64,000 nt of DNA from Acidobacteriota bacterium. GTDB lineage: Bacteria; Acidobacteriota; Terriglobia; Acidiferrales; UBA7541. The translations under genes were made by a program, and so were the position numbers. The notes below the pieces were generated by a model. It searched no databases. It was not told the DNA's origin and was given only the letters and a program-made list of their open reading frames with translations. Below are positions 39,659 to 46,460 of the stretch, piece after piece (position 1 is the stretch's first letter; each line of letters starts with the position of its first letter). Where the stretch lies: positions 1 to 64,000 of the forward strand of contig QHYZ01000059.1 in assembly GCA_003225295.1 (NCBI GenBank). The letters are read 5' to 3'.

Positions 39659-40004
39659 CAGCATTCCTTTCAGGGCGCCGCCATTCTTCTTGCTTGGCAT
39701 GCGTACCGATGTGAGAACAGCTGCTGGGCACGGGTGGCCCGAACGTATGCCGTGGGAACATAAAGGCGTTCCACGACTCCGCCAGCGTCGAACATGACTT
39801 CGCTGGTCACCAGTTGATTTCCCCGTGCTCTTCGTTTTGTCGGACTAGTTTGACGCCGATCGCGGTGCAGCAATCCACCGTGGCGAACATCCGGAACCTG
39901 AATCATCTGAACGACGGTCAGTGACATGACTCACCCGCTGCCGCACGGTGACGTGCGCGGAAATTGCGCTGCTCAGTCTAGCACGCCTCCCTCTTGACGC
40001 ATCC

Positions 40005-40046
40005 TCCCCCTCGTGACGACTCGTGACGACTCGTGAACGAGGGGGA
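40005..40046. repeat. Inverted repeat enclosing tandem decamers
   Basis: TCCCCCTCGT (40005-40014) and ACGAGGGGGA (40037-40046) are perfect inverted 10-mers. Between and overlapping them, CGTGACGACT is repeated in tandem (40012-40031) and followed by CGTGAACG. Confidence 0.7.
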
Positions 40047-40065
40047 TTCCCAGGTTGGGCACACG
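40035..40065 (+). repeat. Short dispersed repeat, copy 2
   Basis: This is the partner of 37806-37837 (GAACGAGGG-GATTCCCAGGTT then GGCACAC), overlapping the inverted repeat at 40005-40046. Confidence 0.5.
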
Positions 40066-40136
40066 GTGGCCGCCGCACGCGCGGCAGCAAACTTTTTCCC
40101 CGACTATCCGCCCACCAAAGTGGCCAAGAAAGAAGA

Positions 40137-41072
40137 TTAGACAGCGGTGAGGAAGGCGCCGTCGGGGGCGACCAGGCCGTGGGCCATGCGCGGGGTGTTG
40201 AAGGCCAAGCCCGGGTTGCCATGGCGGTCGAGGAGGATGAGGCCGCCGGTCGAGTGGGTGCGTTTGGCGAGAAGATGGACGGCTTCGCGGGCGACGAGGT
40301 CGGCGGTGGAGGCTTCGCAGGAAATGTTGGGTGGCGTGTCCACGCAGGTGGCGGGGCGACGGAGAAGATCGACGGCTGATTTGGCCAAGACGACCTTCAT
40401 GATGGCTTCGCCATAGCCAGTGCAGGAGACCCCCCCGGCTTCGGAGTCAGCGTAGCAGCCGCAGCCGATGAGTGGCGAATCGCCGACACGGCCGGGAAGT
40501 TTGCAGCAGGTGCCGCCGGTGGAAGTGGCGGCCCATAAATTACCGTCTCGATCGATGGCCACCGCGCCGACGGTTCCCTGTTCGTGGCCGCGGTGATGGG
40601 CGGCCGCGTGTTTGTCTTCCTTGCACTTCAGCCAGGCTTCGCGCTCGGCTTCGCTGACCATTTCCTCCGGCTGGCAGAGGGGGATTCCCTGATCTTTGGC
40701 GAAGCGCTCCGCGCCTTCCGCGACGAGCATCATGTGCGGGCAATTTTCGAGAATCTTACGTGCCACCCGAATGGGATTTTTGACGCGTTGCAAAGTCGCG
40801 GCGGCTCCGGCGCGAAGCGTTGCGCCGTTCATGACCATGGCGTCGCATTCGACGCGGCCGTCAAGATTGAGGTGCGAGCCGTAACCTGCGTCGAAGACCG
40901 GGTCGTCTTCGAGGGCCACGATGGCGGCTTCGATGGCGTCTAGAGCGGAGCCGCCGCGGGAGAGGATGGACCAACCCGCAGCAAGAGCGCGGTGGCAGCC
41001 GGATTTGCAGGCCTCTAAGGCTTCGTCAGGAATGTCCCACGCGCCGCCATGAACAATGAGGGCCGGTTTCAT
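40137..41072 (-). CDS. Isoaspartyl peptidase / plant-type L-asparaginase (Ntn hydrolase)
   Basis: This 311-residue precursor cleaves itself into alpha and beta chains. The new N-terminal nucleophile Thr is in HEQGTVGAVAIDRDGNLWAA, with TSTGGTCCKLPGRVGDSPL and YADSEAGGVSCTGYGE downstream. The alpha part opens ALIVHGGAWDIPDEAL and contains SALDAIEAAIVALEDDPVFD. It is not secreted: the ATG at 41072 directly precedes the conserved start, so it probably recycles isoaspartyl peptides in the cytoplasm. No clear ribosome site is present. Confidence 0.94.
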   Translation of the reverse strand: MKPALIVHGGAWDIPDEALEACKSGCHRALAAGWSILSRGGSALDAIEAAIVALEDDPVFDAGYGSHLNLDGRVECDAMVMNGATLRAGAAATLQRVKNPIRVARKILENCPHMMLVAEGAERFAKDQGIPLCQPEEMVSEAEREAWLKCKEDKHAAAHHRGHEQGTVGAVAIDRDGNLWAATSTGGTCCKLPGRVGDSPLIGCGCYADSEAGGVSCTGYGEAIMKVVLAKSAVDLLRRPATCVDTPPNISCEASTADLVAREAVHLLAKRTHSTGGLILLDRHGNPGLAFNTPRMAHGLVAPDGAFLTAV

Positions 41073-41090
41073 GAACAAAGAATCGCAGAG

Positions 41091-41111
41091 AAAATGGAAA
41101 ATGGAAAATGG
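41091..41111 (+). repeat. Heptamer tandem repeat
   Basis: AAAATGG occurs three times in direct succession upstream of the isoaspartyl peptidase start. Confidence 0.8.
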
Positions 41112-41208
41112 AAATTCCAAAAGCAAGACTCGAAATATGAAACTGGCAAATGGCCGCGAAAAAACAGACTTAACCGAGAGACGCGGAGTTCGCGGGGAAG
41201 AAAAATCT

Positions 41209-41529
41209 TCACACGAAGAAATCGAGAACGAAGAGAAGGAGGCCGATCAAAAGAAGCACCGGGCCGCCATTGATGGAACTGCGCGGAAGGCGGCTCAGTG
41301 AGTGGAAAAAGGAAGCCGGGATGGCCTTGAAGCGGGATTCCTCGCGGATGCTGTAGAACGGACCCACGGGGGTATAGCGCGAGAAGTTGCGGCGGAACAC
41401 GGAAATCTCGTCCTGAACCCAGACGGAGAACTCGCCACGGTTGCGCCACACCAATGCGGCACCCGCCAGGAATAAGAGATAGCCGGCAACGGCCAGGAGC
41501 CCGAGCGTCGGGCCTTCTCCCCAGTTCAT
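41209..41529 (-). CDS. Small membrane protein, function unknown
   Basis: This 106-residue protein has two hydrophobic helices. One is at the N-terminus (TLGLLAVAGYLLFLAGAALV, about 8-27) and one at the very C-terminus (GPVLLLIGLLLFVLDFFV, about 88-105). A basic/aromatic middle contains VQDEISVFRRNFSRYTPVG. Codon use is normal and the ATG is plausible. It lies 59 bases after greA on the same strand and could be co-transcribed. No family recognised. Confidence 0.7.
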   Translation of the reverse strand: MNWGEGPTLGLLAVAGYLLFLAGAALVWRNRGEFSVWVQDEISVFRRNFSRYTPVGPFYSIREESRFKAIPASFFHSLSRLPRSSINGGPVLLLIGLLLFVLDFFV

Positions 41530-41588
41530 AAGTCCTCACAGGCGGCCCACACGATCTGTTGAATAGGACGCCCGAAACAGCCAGATGG

Positions 41589-42068
41589 TTACTCGCCGTC
41601 GTGGATGGTGGCGAGGCGCACGACTTCAAACTCCTTCTTGCCCGCGGGTGTGGCAACTTCGATTTCGTCGCCCACCTTGCGGTTGAGCAGCGCCTTGCCG
41701 ATGGGCGAGGTGGTGGAGATGAGGCCCTTCTCGGCGTCGGCTTCCTCGCTGCTCACCAGCGTGTATTCGATTTTCGCGTCGCGCTGCACGTCCAGTACGA
41801 CTATGCGTGAGCCATACCCGGAGCGGTCTTTGGGGATATTGCTGAGGTTCAGCATGCTGAGATCGCCCATGCGCTTCTTGAGATGGGTGATCTTGAGGTT
41901 GACGTAGCCCTGGCGCTCCTTGGCGTACTTATACTCGGCGTTCTCGGACAGGTCGCCGTGGGCGCGGGCCACAGCGATTTCCTTGGGAAGCTCGACGCTG
42001 AGCTCGTGCGAGAGCTGATCAATTTCGTCTTGCAGCTTTTTCTTAATCTTGGCTAGTGGGTCGGACAT
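41589..42068 (-). CDS. greA: Transcription elongation factor GreA
   Basis: GreA enters the RNA polymerase secondary channel and stimulates cleavage of backtracked transcripts. The 159-residue protein has the N-terminal coiled coil (DEIDQLSHELSVELPKEIAV, GDLSENAEYKYAKERQ) with the catalytic acidic tip in DLSEN, then the C-terminal FKBP-like domain (VGDEIEVATPAGKKEFEVV). It has its own consensus-like promoter and a leader that forms a strong intrinsic terminator before the gene, a layout comparable to the autoregulated greA leader of E. coli. No obvious Shine-Dalgarno precedes the ATG. Confidence 0.97.
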   Translation of the reverse strand: MSDPLAKIKKKLQDEIDQLSHELSVELPKEIAVARAHGDLSENAEYKYAKERQGYVNLKITHLKKRMGDLSMLNLSNIPKDRSGYGSRIVVLDVQRDAKIEYTLVSSEEADAEKGLISTTSPIGKALLNRKVGDEIEVATPAGKKEFEVVRLATIHDGE

Positions 42069-42091
42069 GGTAGTGGTTTGTCAGTTCATTT

Positions 42092-42142
42092 AAAAAAAAG
42101 TCTGCGGAGTCCGGGACCAACGGCTGGTCTCCCAGACCCCGC
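42092..42142 (-). terminator. Intrinsic terminator/attenuator in the greA leader
   Basis: On the minus strand a 16-bp stem begins GCGGGGTCTGGG (paired with CCCGGACTCCGC), then a 2-nt bulge and ACCA/TGGT with a small loop. AGAC and eight Ts (42099-42092) follow. It starts about 3 nt after the predicted transcription start and ends 24 bases before the ATG, so it must be read through for greA expression. Confidence 0.8.
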
Positions 42143-42151
42143 TAAGGAAAC

Positions 42152-42181
42152 ATTATAGATGCGGGAGAATTGAACTCACAA
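42152..42181 (-). promoter_or_regulatory. greA promoter
   Basis: Minus strand TTGTGA (42176-42181), 18-bp spacer, perfect TATAAT (42152-42157). Start predicted near 42145. Confidence 0.75.
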
Positions 42182-42261
42182 GGGGAAGCGCGCCATGAGC
42201 GGGAATATCTTTTTCCTGGCGTTTCGCAGACCGCGACGCACACTTTAGCAGGGTCCGCCGG

Positions 42262-42750
42262 CTAGCGGACCTTGACTTCCAGGCTCTGGGTGCGCGTGTG
42301 GCCGGCCGCGTCGGCAATGGTCAGCGTGTAGGTAGTTGATTTAGCGGGAGTTACATCAACACAGCGAGAGTACGAGGGCCACACGGGATGGGGCTGCGGT
42401 TCGAGCTTGACGGCCTTGGCGTTGGCTACGCCGTAGCACAACTGTACACTTTCACCGCGGCGAATGGCTCCGGGAGAGGCGTAGAAGCTTTGGATGGCCA
42501 GCTCCTGTCCACCAAATTGCTCTAGGGCGACACGATCCTGCTGCTGCTGCTTCTGGAGGCTTACTTCTTTAGCGTGTCTGTCCAGGTCACGGTTTTCCTG
42601 CCAGCGGGAGAAAAGGATCCAGCCCACGACGAGCGTGCCGATGGCCAGTGCGGCCCTGGAATAAAGGAAGGGATTCTTAAAGACGGATTTGGTTTGGCGA
42701 CCTGGCAGAGCCAGCATGCCGGCACCCCATCGTAACCTGAGCTTCGACAT
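42262..42750 (-). CDS. Membrane-anchored Ig-like domain protein, function unknown
   Basis: The protein has 162 residues from the ATG at 42750; a TTG at 42810 overlapping the upstream stop is the alternative. One transmembrane helix (SRAALAIGTLVVGWILFSRW, about 32-51), a Gln-rich coiled segment (KEVSLQKQQQQDRVALEQFG) and a C-terminal Ig-like beta-sandwich follow (SFYASPGAIRRGESVQLCYG, CVDVTPAKSTTYTLTIADAA). The two Cys could form a disulfide outside the membrane. It follows the deacetylase gene directly and is probably in its operon, but no function can be assigned. Confidence 0.75.
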   Translation of the reverse strand: MSKLRLRWGAGMLALPGRQTKSVFKNPFLYSRAALAIGTLVVGWILFSRWQENRDLDRHAKEVSLQKQQQQDRVALEQFGGQELAIQSFYASPGAIRRGESVQLCYGVANAKAVKLEPQPHPVWPSYSRCVDVTPAKSTTYTLTIADAAGHTRTQSLEVKVR

Positions 42751-42806
42751 TGAAAATAGCGCGGAATGGCGTGCCAAGGAAGGAAAGATGAAGCGAGCCT
42801 CAGGAC

Positions 42807-43748
42807 TCAATGCTGGACGGCGTGGGCCAGTTCCCGCCAGGTGATGAGCTTGATGTCTTGTTCCTGGAGCAACTGCCGGAATGCGGGGCTGGTGAAAAAA
42901 TCGAAATCGCGCTGGCGCCAGGCGGCGCCCCAGGTGTCACGCTCGCGCGTGGCGGCTTTCATTTCGTCATCGGCGAAGGCCAGGTGGATGACGAATTCGG
43001 TGACGCCAGGTTGAAGATTCTTGAGGGCGGTCTTGTAGAAATCGGCCCATTTCTCCGGCGCAACGGCGGGATCGATGGTAACGGTGTGCTCCAGGACGAT
43101 GTCAGCGGCAGTCAGGCCGGATTCCAGATAGGGACGGTCCGCGAACCAGTCCCGCGCGACGAAAACCGGCAAATTGTACTGGTGAGCGACGCGCAGAAGA
43201 ACCTCGAATAGATCTTTGCCATTTTCGAAGAGACGATATTGGTGGGAATCGAGATGCGTGGGCCGGACGCCCATGGCGTAAGCGCGGTCAATTTGCGCGT
43301 GAAGCTCCAAGTCCACCTCTTTCGGATTGATCCTTTTCGCGGCCGTCCAGTCGTGATGGAAATAACCGTTCTCGTCGACCAGGCTTGGAACCATGTCTTT
43401 GGATACGACAGGACCCCAGCGGTAGTAAACCCGCTCGCTCGTCAATGTAAGGTGCAGGCCGAAATCGACATGCGCATGAGATTTGGCGTAATCGGCAATC
43501 TCCGGAAACCACGGGCAGGGCACCATAATGCTGGCGGAGTTGACCAGACCGGTGTCCAGAGCTGTGATGGTCGCCGCGTTCACGGAATGAGTCACGCCGA
43601 CGTCGTCGGCATGTACGATCAGGAGTTTTGCATCAGGAGCGAAGCCCAGCTTTTCTGCCAGAGACTTGCCGTTGATTTGCGCATGCGCTTCGAGGAGAGC
43701 GCCGACAAGAAGAACAAAGAGCCAGGCGGAGACACGCTTTCGATTCAT
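42807..43748 (-). CDS. Exported ChbG/YdjC-family carbohydrate deacetylase
   Basis: This 313-residue YdjC-fold hydrolase has an N-terminal signal peptide (SAWLFVLLVGALLEAHAQ), unusual because ChbG itself is cytoplasmic. Family motifs are LLIVHADDVGVTHSVNAAT (metal Asp), VDFGLHLTLTSE (His) and RPTHLDSHQYRLF (His). ChbG removes acetyl groups from chito-oligosaccharides; related enzymes act on other amino sugars or hopanoids. It lies 51 bases downstream of a GH3 glycosidase on the same strand, so the two may work on the same glycan in the periplasm (inference). Confidence 0.88.
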   Translation of the reverse strand: MNRKRVSAWLFVLLVGALLEAHAQINGKSLAEKLGFAPDAKLLIVHADDVGVTHSVNAATITALDTGLVNSASIMVPCPWFPEIADYAKSHAHVDFGLHLTLTSERVYYRWGPVVSKDMVPSLVDENGYFHHDWTAAKRINPKEVDLELHAQIDRAYAMGVRPTHLDSHQYRLFENGKDLFEVLLRVAHQYNLPVFVARDWFADRPYLESGLTAADIVLEHTVTIDPAVAPEKWADFYKTALKNLQPGVTEFVIHLAFADDEMKAATRERDTWGAAWRQRDFDFFTSPAFRQLLQEQDIKLITWRELAHAVQH

Positions 43749-43799
43749 TGGTTGGACCTTTCCTGCGCTTGCACTCGATTGGGAGTTGGTGCTTAGCCC

Positions 43800-46460
43800 T
43801 CAATCGTCCAAGGTGGCGCTGGATGTGATCGTGAATCTTGTCGGCAAGCCCTTTGTTGGCCGTTGACCGGGCGCGTCGACCGGTTGACCGGCGCCGATCC
43901 AAACCTCGACGGCGCCGGGAACGATGCGGCGAACTCCAGCCTCATCCACGATGCTCAAATCACGGTCGCGCAGCGGAAAATCCACGGTTTCGGAAGCAGC
44001 GGCGTCGAGATGGATGCGCCGAAATCCAGCGAGCGCGCGAATCGGAGCGCCATCGACGCCGGGATGCGCAAGATAAAGCTGCACCACTTCATCCCCGGGG
44101 AAGGAACTGGTGTTCGTGACCCCCACGGAGACGGTGACGGTGCCGTCGGCGGCCACCTGGGCCGGGCTTACTTTCGCGTCCGAATAGCTGAAGGACGAGA
44201 AACTCAAACCATACCCGAAAGGATAGAGCGGCGGCTCGGTGAAATAGCGGTAAGTCCTGCCGGCCATAGAGTAGTTGCCAAACGGCGGGAGCTGCACGAC
44301 GGATTGATAAAAAGTTACCGGCAACCTTCCGGCAGGATTGTATTCGCCGGAAAGGACATCGGCTACGGCGGTGCCACCTTCCTCGCCCGGATACCAGGCT
44401 TGCAGGATAGCGGCGGCGTGTTGCTGCGCCCAATTCACGGCCAGGGCGCTTCCGCTCGTGAGCACCACGATGAGAGGCTTCCCGGTGGCAGCAACAGACT
44501 CCAGAAGTTCTTGCTGAGGCCGGGGAAGGTTGAGGTCCAGACGATCGCCTCCGAAAAAGCCAGGATCGCTTGAATCGCTTTCCTCTCCCTCAAACTGCGG
44601 AGTGATGCCCACCACGGCGATCACCACATCCGCCTTGCGGGCGGCGTTCACGGCTTCTTGAGACAGATTCGGGGGCAACCAGAGAAGCCGTGCGGTGGCC
44701 TCCCACCAGGTGTGGAAGTACTCCATGCGGATCGGGTAAGGGTGGCCCGCCTGCAGGTGAACAAGTGTGGTCATCGTGCGAGCGCCGTGGGGCCCAGAAT
44801 CATCCACAAACTTTTTTCCATCCAGGTAAATGCGATAGCCACCGTCGGTACTCCCGCCCAAGCGGTAGTCACCGTCTACGGGCGGGACCAATTCGCCCGT
44901 CCAGCGCACGGAATAATTCCCCGCCGGAACACCGGGCCCCGGCGAGACATTGTTCCACTCGAAATCCACGTTGGCATCCGTGCGCTTCAGAACCGCACTA
45001 CCTGAAAGGTTGACGTTGGCAAAGTATTCCCCGTTTAAACCAGGTGGGGAGTTCCTGCCGCCGGTGCGAAGGTACTCGGAGGGAAGGATAACCGCGCTTG
45101 TTTCGGTTACCGGAGATCCTAATGCCGTAAGAATCTTCGCGTTGCGAAACCGCCTTCGAAGGCCTTCGAGAATCGTGGTGTAGCTTGATGGGTTGCCGTT
45201 GTAGTTGCCCAGGAGGACAGGCAGTGAATCGGCATTCGGGCCGATGACCGCAATCGTTTTCACCGAAGATTTCAGAGGCAGCGTGTTACGTTCGTTTTTC
45301 AACAGGACCATCGATTTGTGAGCGGCTTCGAGGGCCAGCTGGCGGTGGGCAGGGGTGTCGTTATCGGCGATGGATAGTTTCGACCAAGGCACGCGCTCCG
45401 GCGGGTCGAACATGCCGAGCCGGAACCTTGCTTCGAACAGGCGCTTCACGGCGCGATCGATATCCTCGTTGGCCAGCAGGCGATTCCGAACGGCGAACGG
45501 CAACGCAGCGAATTCGGGGCCGCAGCTCAAGTCCGTCCCGGCCTTCACCGCGAGGGCTGCGGCCTGTTCGAGGGTGAGCACGAAACCGTGGCCTTGATGG
45601 AGGTCACTGATGGCCCAGCAATCCGAGACGACATAGCCGCGGAAGCCCCATTTATTGCGCAGCGTGTCAAAGAGAAAGTGATTTGCGCACGCCGGTTCGC
45701 CGCGCACGGAATTGTACGCGCACATAACCGAATCGGCCCGGCCCTCCAAGATCGTGGCGCGAAACGCAGGAGTGTAGGTGTCCGCCAGATCGTGCGGAGA
45801 TACCGGCACGTTAAAGCGATGCCGCAGAACTTCTGGACCGCTGTGGACGGCATAGTGCTTGGACGTCGAGACCGTTTTCAAGTAGCTCGGGTCGTCGCCT
45901 TGCAGGCCGGTAACGAATGCTACGCCGATGCGGCTGGTGAGGTAGGGATCTTCGCCATAGGTTTCCTGGCCGCGTCCCCAGCGCGGGTCGCGAAAGATAT
46001 TGATATTGGGCGACCAAAAGGTGAGGCCGTAGTAGCGTCCGGTGTTTCCATGTTGGATTGCATCATTGTATTTGGCGCGTGCTTCGGTGGAGATCACATC
46101 GGCGACGCGATGGATCAGATCGGTATCCCAGGTGGCGGCGAGACCGATGGCTTGGGGGAAAACGGTTGCATTTCCGGAGCGCGCGACGCCGTGCAAACCC
46201 TCGTTCCACCAGTTGTAGGCGGGGATGCCCAGGCGCGGAATCGCTGGCGCGACGTCCTGCATCTGCGAAACCTTTTCTTCAAGAGTCATGCGCGAGACCA
46301 GATCGTTTACACGTTCTTGGGTGGGCAGGCTGGCGTCCAGATAAGGAGCGCGCGCCACCTCGTTCACGGCAGAAGCGGTCCGAATTTGTGCCGCGGCGGG
46401 CCATCGACTCAATAGCAATGGCAGAGCCACGAGGCTATATCGCAGAAGCTGCTTGGACAT
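43800..46460 (-). CDS. GH3 beta-glucosidase/beta-xylosidase with inserted PA14 domain
   Basis: Exported glycosidase of 886 residues with signal peptide (1-24, WPAAAQ). The GH3 N-domain (about 40-340) has WWNEGLHGVARSG, SPNINIFRDPRWGRGQETYG, KHYAVHSG and the nucleophile D280 in GYVVSDCWAI. The GH3 C-domain is interrupted around 480-620 by a PA14 module (GLNGEYFANVNLSG, YRIYLDGKKFVDDSG) and closes with a fibronectin III-like domain. The set of motifs is that of xylan beta-xylosidase/beta-glucosidase members. It sits downstream of the LacI gene and upstream of a deacetylase and belongs to the carbohydrate locus. Confidence 0.94.
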   Translation of the reverse strand: MSKQLLRYSLVALPLLLSRWPAAAQIRTASAVNEVARAPYLDASLPTQERVNDLVSRMTLEEKVSQMQDVAPAIPRLGIPAYNWWNEGLHGVARSGNATVFPQAIGLAATWDTDLIHRVADVISTEARAKYNDAIQHGNTGRYYGLTFWSPNINIFRDPRWGRGQETYGEDPYLTSRIGVAFVTGLQGDDPSYLKTVSTSKHYAVHSGPEVLRHRFNVPVSPHDLADTYTPAFRATILEGRADSVMCAYNSVRGEPACANHFLFDTLRNKWGFRGYVVSDCWAISDLHQGHGFVLTLEQAAALAVKAGTDLSCGPEFAALPFAVRNRLLANEDIDRAVKRLFEARFRLGMFDPPERVPWSKLSIADNDTPAHRQLALEAAHKSMVLLKNERNTLPLKSSVKTIAVIGPNADSLPVLLGNYNGNPSSYTTILEGLRRRFRNAKILTALGSPVTETSAVILPSEYLRTGGRNSPPGLNGEYFANVNLSGSAVLKRTDANVDFEWNNVSPGPGVPAGNYSVRWTGELVPPVDGDYRLGGSTDGGYRIYLDGKKFVDDSGPHGARTMTTLVHLQAGHPYPIRMEYFHTWWEATARLLWLPPNLSQEAVNAARKADVVIAVVGITPQFEGEESDSSDPGFFGGDRLDLNLPRPQQELLESVAATGKPLIVVLTSGSALAVNWAQQHAAAILQAWYPGEEGGTAVADVLSGEYNPAGRLPVTFYQSVVQLPPFGNYSMAGRTYRYFTEPPLYPFGYGLSFSSFSYSDAKVSPAQVAADGTVTVSVGVTNTSSFPGDEVVQLYLAHPGVDGAPIRALAGFRRIHLDAAASETVDFPLRDRDLSIVDEAGVRRIVPGAVEVWIGAGQPVDAPGQRPTKGLPTRFTITSSATLDD

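Follow-up and report, generated by a model that had tools for sequence, protein, structure and literature searches.

A predicted promoter-proximal terminator in the greA leader of one genus of soil Acidobacteriota, apparently gained independently of E. coli GraL

The gene greA often has a terminator before it, and its product, GreA, acts on the polymerase itself. The E. coli greA leader contains a terminator, yields RNAs of 37–59 nt and allows about one third read-through, and repression of greA needs catalytically active GreA and was seen only in vivo (PMC6829880). In vitro experiments did not reproduce this feedback, which apparently requires a further partner. The window, by which we mean the whole stretch of 64,000 nucleotides that was analysed, contains a greA gene on the minus strand, and an earlier note had proposed that its leader has the layout of the E. 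coli greA leader. The questions raised by this locus are whether the leader is an attenuator, and how it is related to the one in E. coli.

The GreA protein of the window showed 35% identity to E. coli GreA and retained the acidic tip residues D41/E44, a precondition for repression by catalytic GreA. The GreA models of NCBIfam were the best match for this ORF, yet under the curated cut-offs. The genes flanking greA (42262–42810 and 41209–41529, both on the minus strand) were conserved beside it through much of the genus; the first encodes a protein of 182 aa whose N terminus contains a hydrophobic stretch, the second one of 106 aa, and neither product showed a Pfam or NCBIfam match.

The TATAAT box, the 16-bp stem and the eight Ts described before greA in the earlier note were all found where it had placed them, on the minus strand, except that the Ts end 23 nt and not 24 bp before the ATG. 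On this strand the leader was shown to have the order TTGTGA-18 nt-TATAAT-GTTTCCTTA-[GCGGGGTCTGGGAGACCAGCCGTTGGTCCCGGACTCCGC]-AGAC-TTTTTTTT-23 nt-ATG of greA (Table 1).

Table 1. Features of the greA locus, with positions in the window
Feature	Position	Strand	Basis
greA, cleavage-type GreA	41589..42068	-	Pfam PF01272/PF03449 above cut-off; GDLSENAEY tip; ATG at 42068
Leader remainder to ATG, 23 nt	42069..42091	-	sequence
U-tract (T8)	42092..42099	-	sequence; at least five Ts with hairpin in 28/33
4-nt spacer AGAC, stem to U-tract	42100..42103	-	exactly 4 nt in 25/30 leaders
Predicted terminator/attenuator hairpin, 16 bp	42104..42142	-	fold z −4.4; covariation; 28/33 of genus
Predicted transcription start region	42143..42146	-	inferred from −10 spacing
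Predicted short attenuated RNA, about 46–54 nt	42092..42145	-	inferred from anatomy
−10 hexamer TATAAT	42152..42157	-	read in sequence; conserved throughout genus
−35 hexamer TTGTGA	42176..42181	-	promoter scan; genus consensus CTTGTG

The TTGTGA/TATAAT promoter (10/12 match, 18-nt spacer between −35 and −10) was the sole promoter-like site detected by the promoter scan in 40000–45000, and the 23 nt before the ATG in the window are too short for a second promoter; no Shine-Dalgarno sequence was evident in these 23 nt. Transcripts from this promoter would have to cross the hairpin and the U-tract. The hairpin, which starts 9 nt after the −10 box, consists of a basal stem GCGGGGTCTGG / CCGGACTCCGC and a variable apical part, and contains 16 pairs, a 2-nt bulge and a 5-nt loop. 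Its minimum free energy was −28.2 kcal/mol (z −4.4), and 0/200 shuffles were equally stable. It was not listed by the terminator scan, because the rule used there does not accept a stem and a T-run separated by more than 2 nt. A stable GC-rich hairpin followed by a U-tract, with an offset of 4 nt, is thus located between promoter and start codon, which is the anatomy of an attenuator and supports the likeness to the E. coli greA/GraL leader claimed earlier. The short RNA of about 50 nt that had also been proposed is predicted from this anatomy, with a length of 36–59 nt across the intact leaders of the genus. A mini-ORF (ATG-AAC-TGA) behind the T-run of the window was rejected, as it was not conserved.

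Leaders of greA were compared in 34 genomes of the genus (the window's included) and about 70 other distinct loci. The genus is of the "Ca. Acidiferrum" type in Acidobacteriota subdivision 2 ('gp2') and is represented by MAGs, including records named 'Candidatus Acidiferrum typicum'. One leader with Ns (L024) was left out, and 33 were counted. A leader was scored as positive if five or more Ts came after a hairpin at least as stable as −15 kcal/mol. By this measure 28/33 leaders of the genus were positive, compared to 25/660 shuffled leaders; the absence of the hairpin from close relatives, which the earlier note had named as a refutation, was thus not borne out. Outside the genus 7/68 leaders were positive compared to 68/1360 shuffled ones, which is near background. 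One further leader contained the hairpin with T4 (L016), one contained the hairpin with an interrupted U-tract (L007), and two had lost the element (L018 and L029). In L014, about 89 nt before greA, the 5′ arm was gone, and promoter, 3′ arm and U-tract remained; this seems to be a natural deletion of the arm and thereby a natural terminator knock-out. As the element is lost or damaged in four of the 33 species (L007, L014, L018 and L029), it is dispensable. In the greA gene tree the intact form was found across deep branches of the genus with losses scattered among them, a pattern that fits a single gain at the base of the genus followed by several losses.

In most of the genus, a covariance model of the hairpin detected a single strong copy in each genome, located at greA; it gave no strong match in genomes of other genera within a 299-genome sample of the class. 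With a single strong copy in the genome, a genome-wide repeat family or a general terminator cassette was rejected. Among the weak matches found in other genomes, five loci were checked, and none of them adjoined greA. A similar GCGGAGTTC hairpin, also not beside greA, was observed in another family of the class (L145:1050–1180). A record titled 'Betaproteobacteria bacterium' (L082, CAJCHZ010000030.1) contained greA and the leader of the acidobacterial genus and is probably mislabelled or a mixed bin.

The position of the element relative to its neighbours bears on whether it belongs to greA. The upstream gene (42262–42810) runs in the same direction as greA, and about 100 nt separate its end from the −10 box, as in most relatives, so the hairpin could be the 3′ terminator of this gene, adjoining greA by chance. 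However, the hairpin comes after the −10 box, and in intact cases its stem starts 6–10 nt downstream of this box, i.e., 0–4 nt from the predicted RNA 5′ end. The sequence TTGT starts exactly 24 nt upstream of the start of the −10 box in 29/33 members of the genus. The promoter distance is thus constant, whereas the distance to the upstream gene is not; the distance from the start of the U-tract to the ATG covers an about tenfold range (13 to 160 nt). Furthermore, the hairpin was retained in four leaders in which the upstream gene is a different one and divergent (L010, L011, L015 and L017; aldo/keto reductase-like in L010). The fixed distance to the −10 box and the retention beside divergent neighbours indicate that the element is part of the greA promoter and not the end of the upstream gene; the latter reading is contradicted by the divergent neighbours, was rejected, and is considered highly improbable.

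A genome-wide search for similar leaders, using patterns with a perfect TATAAT only, found TATAAT-N(30-58)-T5 at seven places in the 8.1-Mb genome (385 contigs), which was no more than in the reversed control. The greA hairpin was by far the most stable of the seven. As far as perfect −10 boxes tell, such a leader is therefore not a general habit of the organism.

Comparison of 21 distinct stem-arm pairs, a wider set with hand-anchored arms in which the arm register of L032–L034 is ambiguous, showed that 93.5% of the cells pair and that six out of 11 pairs were changed on both sides. The covariation measures were reached by 0/500 shuffles and by no slid control. When only the 19 closest sequences are compared, the basal stem is nearly invariant, so little covariation signal is available there. 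Fourfold-degenerate sites of greA showed an interspecies identity of 49% and the promoter spacer one of 56%, whereas the stem arms reached 78–80%; because the basal pairs hardly vary there may be a sequence constraint beyond pairing. On the basis of these alignments, the leader stem is an RNA structure under selection and not a product of chance.

The conserved arms (GCGGRGTCCGG / CCGGACTCCGC) are located just downstream of +1, where an inverted repeat might also act at the DNA level, as an operator to which a repressor of the greA promoter binds. However, the compensatory changes preserve pairing rather than sequence, and the T-run would be left unexplained. The inter-arm distance varied from about 5 to 18 nt (with a short-stem group of L019, L020, L022, L023 and L025), unlike that of a dimer operator, which argues for a hairpin. 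We regard the operator reading as very unlikely.

Taken from its sequence, the leader probably attenuates greA in cis by means of an intrinsic terminator close to the promoter. A hairpin at the 5′ end of an RNA protects it from 5′-end-dependent decay, as in the ompA leader, and with a stem beginning 0–4 nt from the predicted 5′ end the hairpin could be a stabiliser of greA mRNA without any role in termination. This would leave unexplained why 28/33 species have at least five Ts after the stem, at a constant distance from it, and we consider it quite unlikely as the whole explanation, while a stabilising role may coexist with attenuation for the read-through mRNA. The short RNA could instead mainly represent a trans-acting sRNA gene, as nudE mRNA is a trans target of GraL in E. 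coli (PMC6829880). An Rfam search of the leader at permissive thresholds also showed a weak similarity to RybB (19.7 bits compared to a cut-off of 40); this sub-threshold match looks like generic terminator resemblance and was rejected. The conserved bases are, however, within the stem, and the apical part and the 5′ tail of 0–4 nt vary, leaving no conserved single-stranded seed, and we give an sRNA gene hardly any credence.

The attenuator proposed here has an unusual spacing. The gap between stem and U-tract was exactly 4 nt in 25/30 leaders, compared to 0–2 nt in textbook terminators and 1 nt in the E. coli greA leader as folded here. In other hairpin/T-run pairs in the same loci, mostly due to chance, the gap was 0–8 nt with a mode of 1–2. 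Because the U-tract sits 4 nt from the stem, termination is probably incomplete and may be weak, and the spacer suggests a leaky terminator or a pause-terminator hybrid. It also puts 9–12 nt between the stem and the end of the T-run, similar to the stem-to-3′-end distance of the his pause, as would be expected if the hairpin stabilised a promoter-near pause, with GreA or other factors setting the rate of polymerase escape, and were not a true terminator. However, a GC-rich stem with a U-tract of 5–8 Ts after it is the hallmark of a terminator, and release 7–9 nt past the stem would still be within the T-run. A pause without termination thus appears unlikely to us.

If the leader is a terminator acting in cis, RNA polymerase (RNAP) would start at the TTGTGA/TATAAT promoter, the hairpin would form at the very 5′ end of the RNA, and RNAP would pause on the U-tract, with two possible outcomes, read-through into greA or the release of a roughly 50-nt RNA. 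As no RNA precedes the hairpin, no antiterminator is possible, and the anatomy excludes ribosome-, tRNA- or ligand-controlled antitermination by upstream alternative pairing. What sets read-through must therefore be either the polymerase's own state or a stem-recognising protein. An elongation factor, i.e., GreA itself, NusA or another secondary-channel factor, would be the likeliest candidate for this role and would give homeostatic control of GreA. In E. coli the Nus factors were without effect on the greA leader (PMC6829880), which counts against this model. GreA feedback on its own leader is plausible by analogy, and an attractive candidate because E. coli shows GreA feedback. The sequence itself shows the promoter, the hairpin and the U-tract, their joint conservation, the compensatory pairing and the single copy per genome; termination, the fraction terminated and the regulator are what we infer. 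A more far-reaching proposal, offered tentatively and with considerable doubt, is that a 5′-end hairpin with a U-tract at a fixed 4-nt offset holds RNAP between pausing and release, that GreA or a competing secondary-channel factor decides the outcome, and that two distant phyla have convergently built greA feedback on a promoter-proximal terminator.

GraL of E. coli and other Enterobacteria (PMC6829880, PMC2965389) shares with the leader of the window the gene, a closely spaced promoter, hairpin and U-tract, an RNA of about 50 nt and a cleavage-competent GreA. It differs in having 7–19 nt before the hairpin (0–4 nt here), a stem of 11 bp (16 bp here), a stem-to-U gap of 1 nt (4 nt here), the start codon at +150 (about +78 here) and two overlapping promoters (one seen here). 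The full effect of GreA in E. coli requires the GraL sequence upstream of the hairpin, +1 to +18 (PMC6829880); a counterpart of this segment is absent here, where the stem begins 0–4 nt from the predicted 5′ end. That the sequence is unrelated to the E. coli leader, as the earlier note had stated, was borne out, since no similarity was seen and the Rfam scan of the window gave no match at the gathering score. Comparison of stem, spacer and 5′ segment likewise revealed no homology to GraL. The note had considered a convergent or an ancient origin. Convergent gain fits the data, but an ancient shared origin is not supported, because the element occurs in a single genus and is lacking from the other genera and families of Acidobacteriota. 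The greA attenuator of this genus was thus apparently gained independently of E. coli GraL.

Attenuators of greA are already known as a kind, greA/rnk being the seventh most often attenuated gene family, with predictions in Proteobacteria, Bacilli and Clostridia (PMC2965389); new is the lineage-specific, apparently convergent version in one genus of soil Acidobacteriota. The text of that survey does not mention greA of Acidobacteriota, and hardly any function has been assigned to the attenuators predicted in Acidobacteria (PMC2965389). The greA/rnk-family attenuators contain a terminator in the 5′ leader, as here, but each of their clusters has an antiterminator (PMC2965389), whereas none can form upstream of the stem here. 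The rimP-leader (RF01770) has a conserved stem and no antiterminator; a protein, for instance NusA, probably reads it (PMC2965389). It resembles the leader of the window in its conserved terminator-stem sequence, the lack of a visible antiterminator and its association with a transcription-factor operon (nusA), and differs in gene and sequence; the RF01770 covariance model showed no match in the genome at E ≤ 1. By the tests made, the leader is similar to GraL in its layout and to the rimP-leader in its logic, and belongs to neither.

A second, much simpler greA attenuator would narrow down the parts that matter, as it has a conserved stem and a spacer of fixed length but neither a 5′ tail nor an antiterminator. 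The natural variants across about 33 species, including short stems, a lost arm and a decayed U-tract, provide a ready test bed.

Leaders from other genera of the order (L100–L123, e.g., L103, L104, L115 and L119) were without the hairpin. In many of them the greA promoter, about 75 nt before the gene, had the pattern ATTTGCGG-N-GCGCAAATCCTC-TATAAT, in which ATTTGCGG-N-GCGCAAATCCTC forms an imperfect inverted repeat over the −35 box and the spacer. These sequences hint that greA is preceded by a DNA operator in these genera and by an RNA attenuator in the genus of the window.
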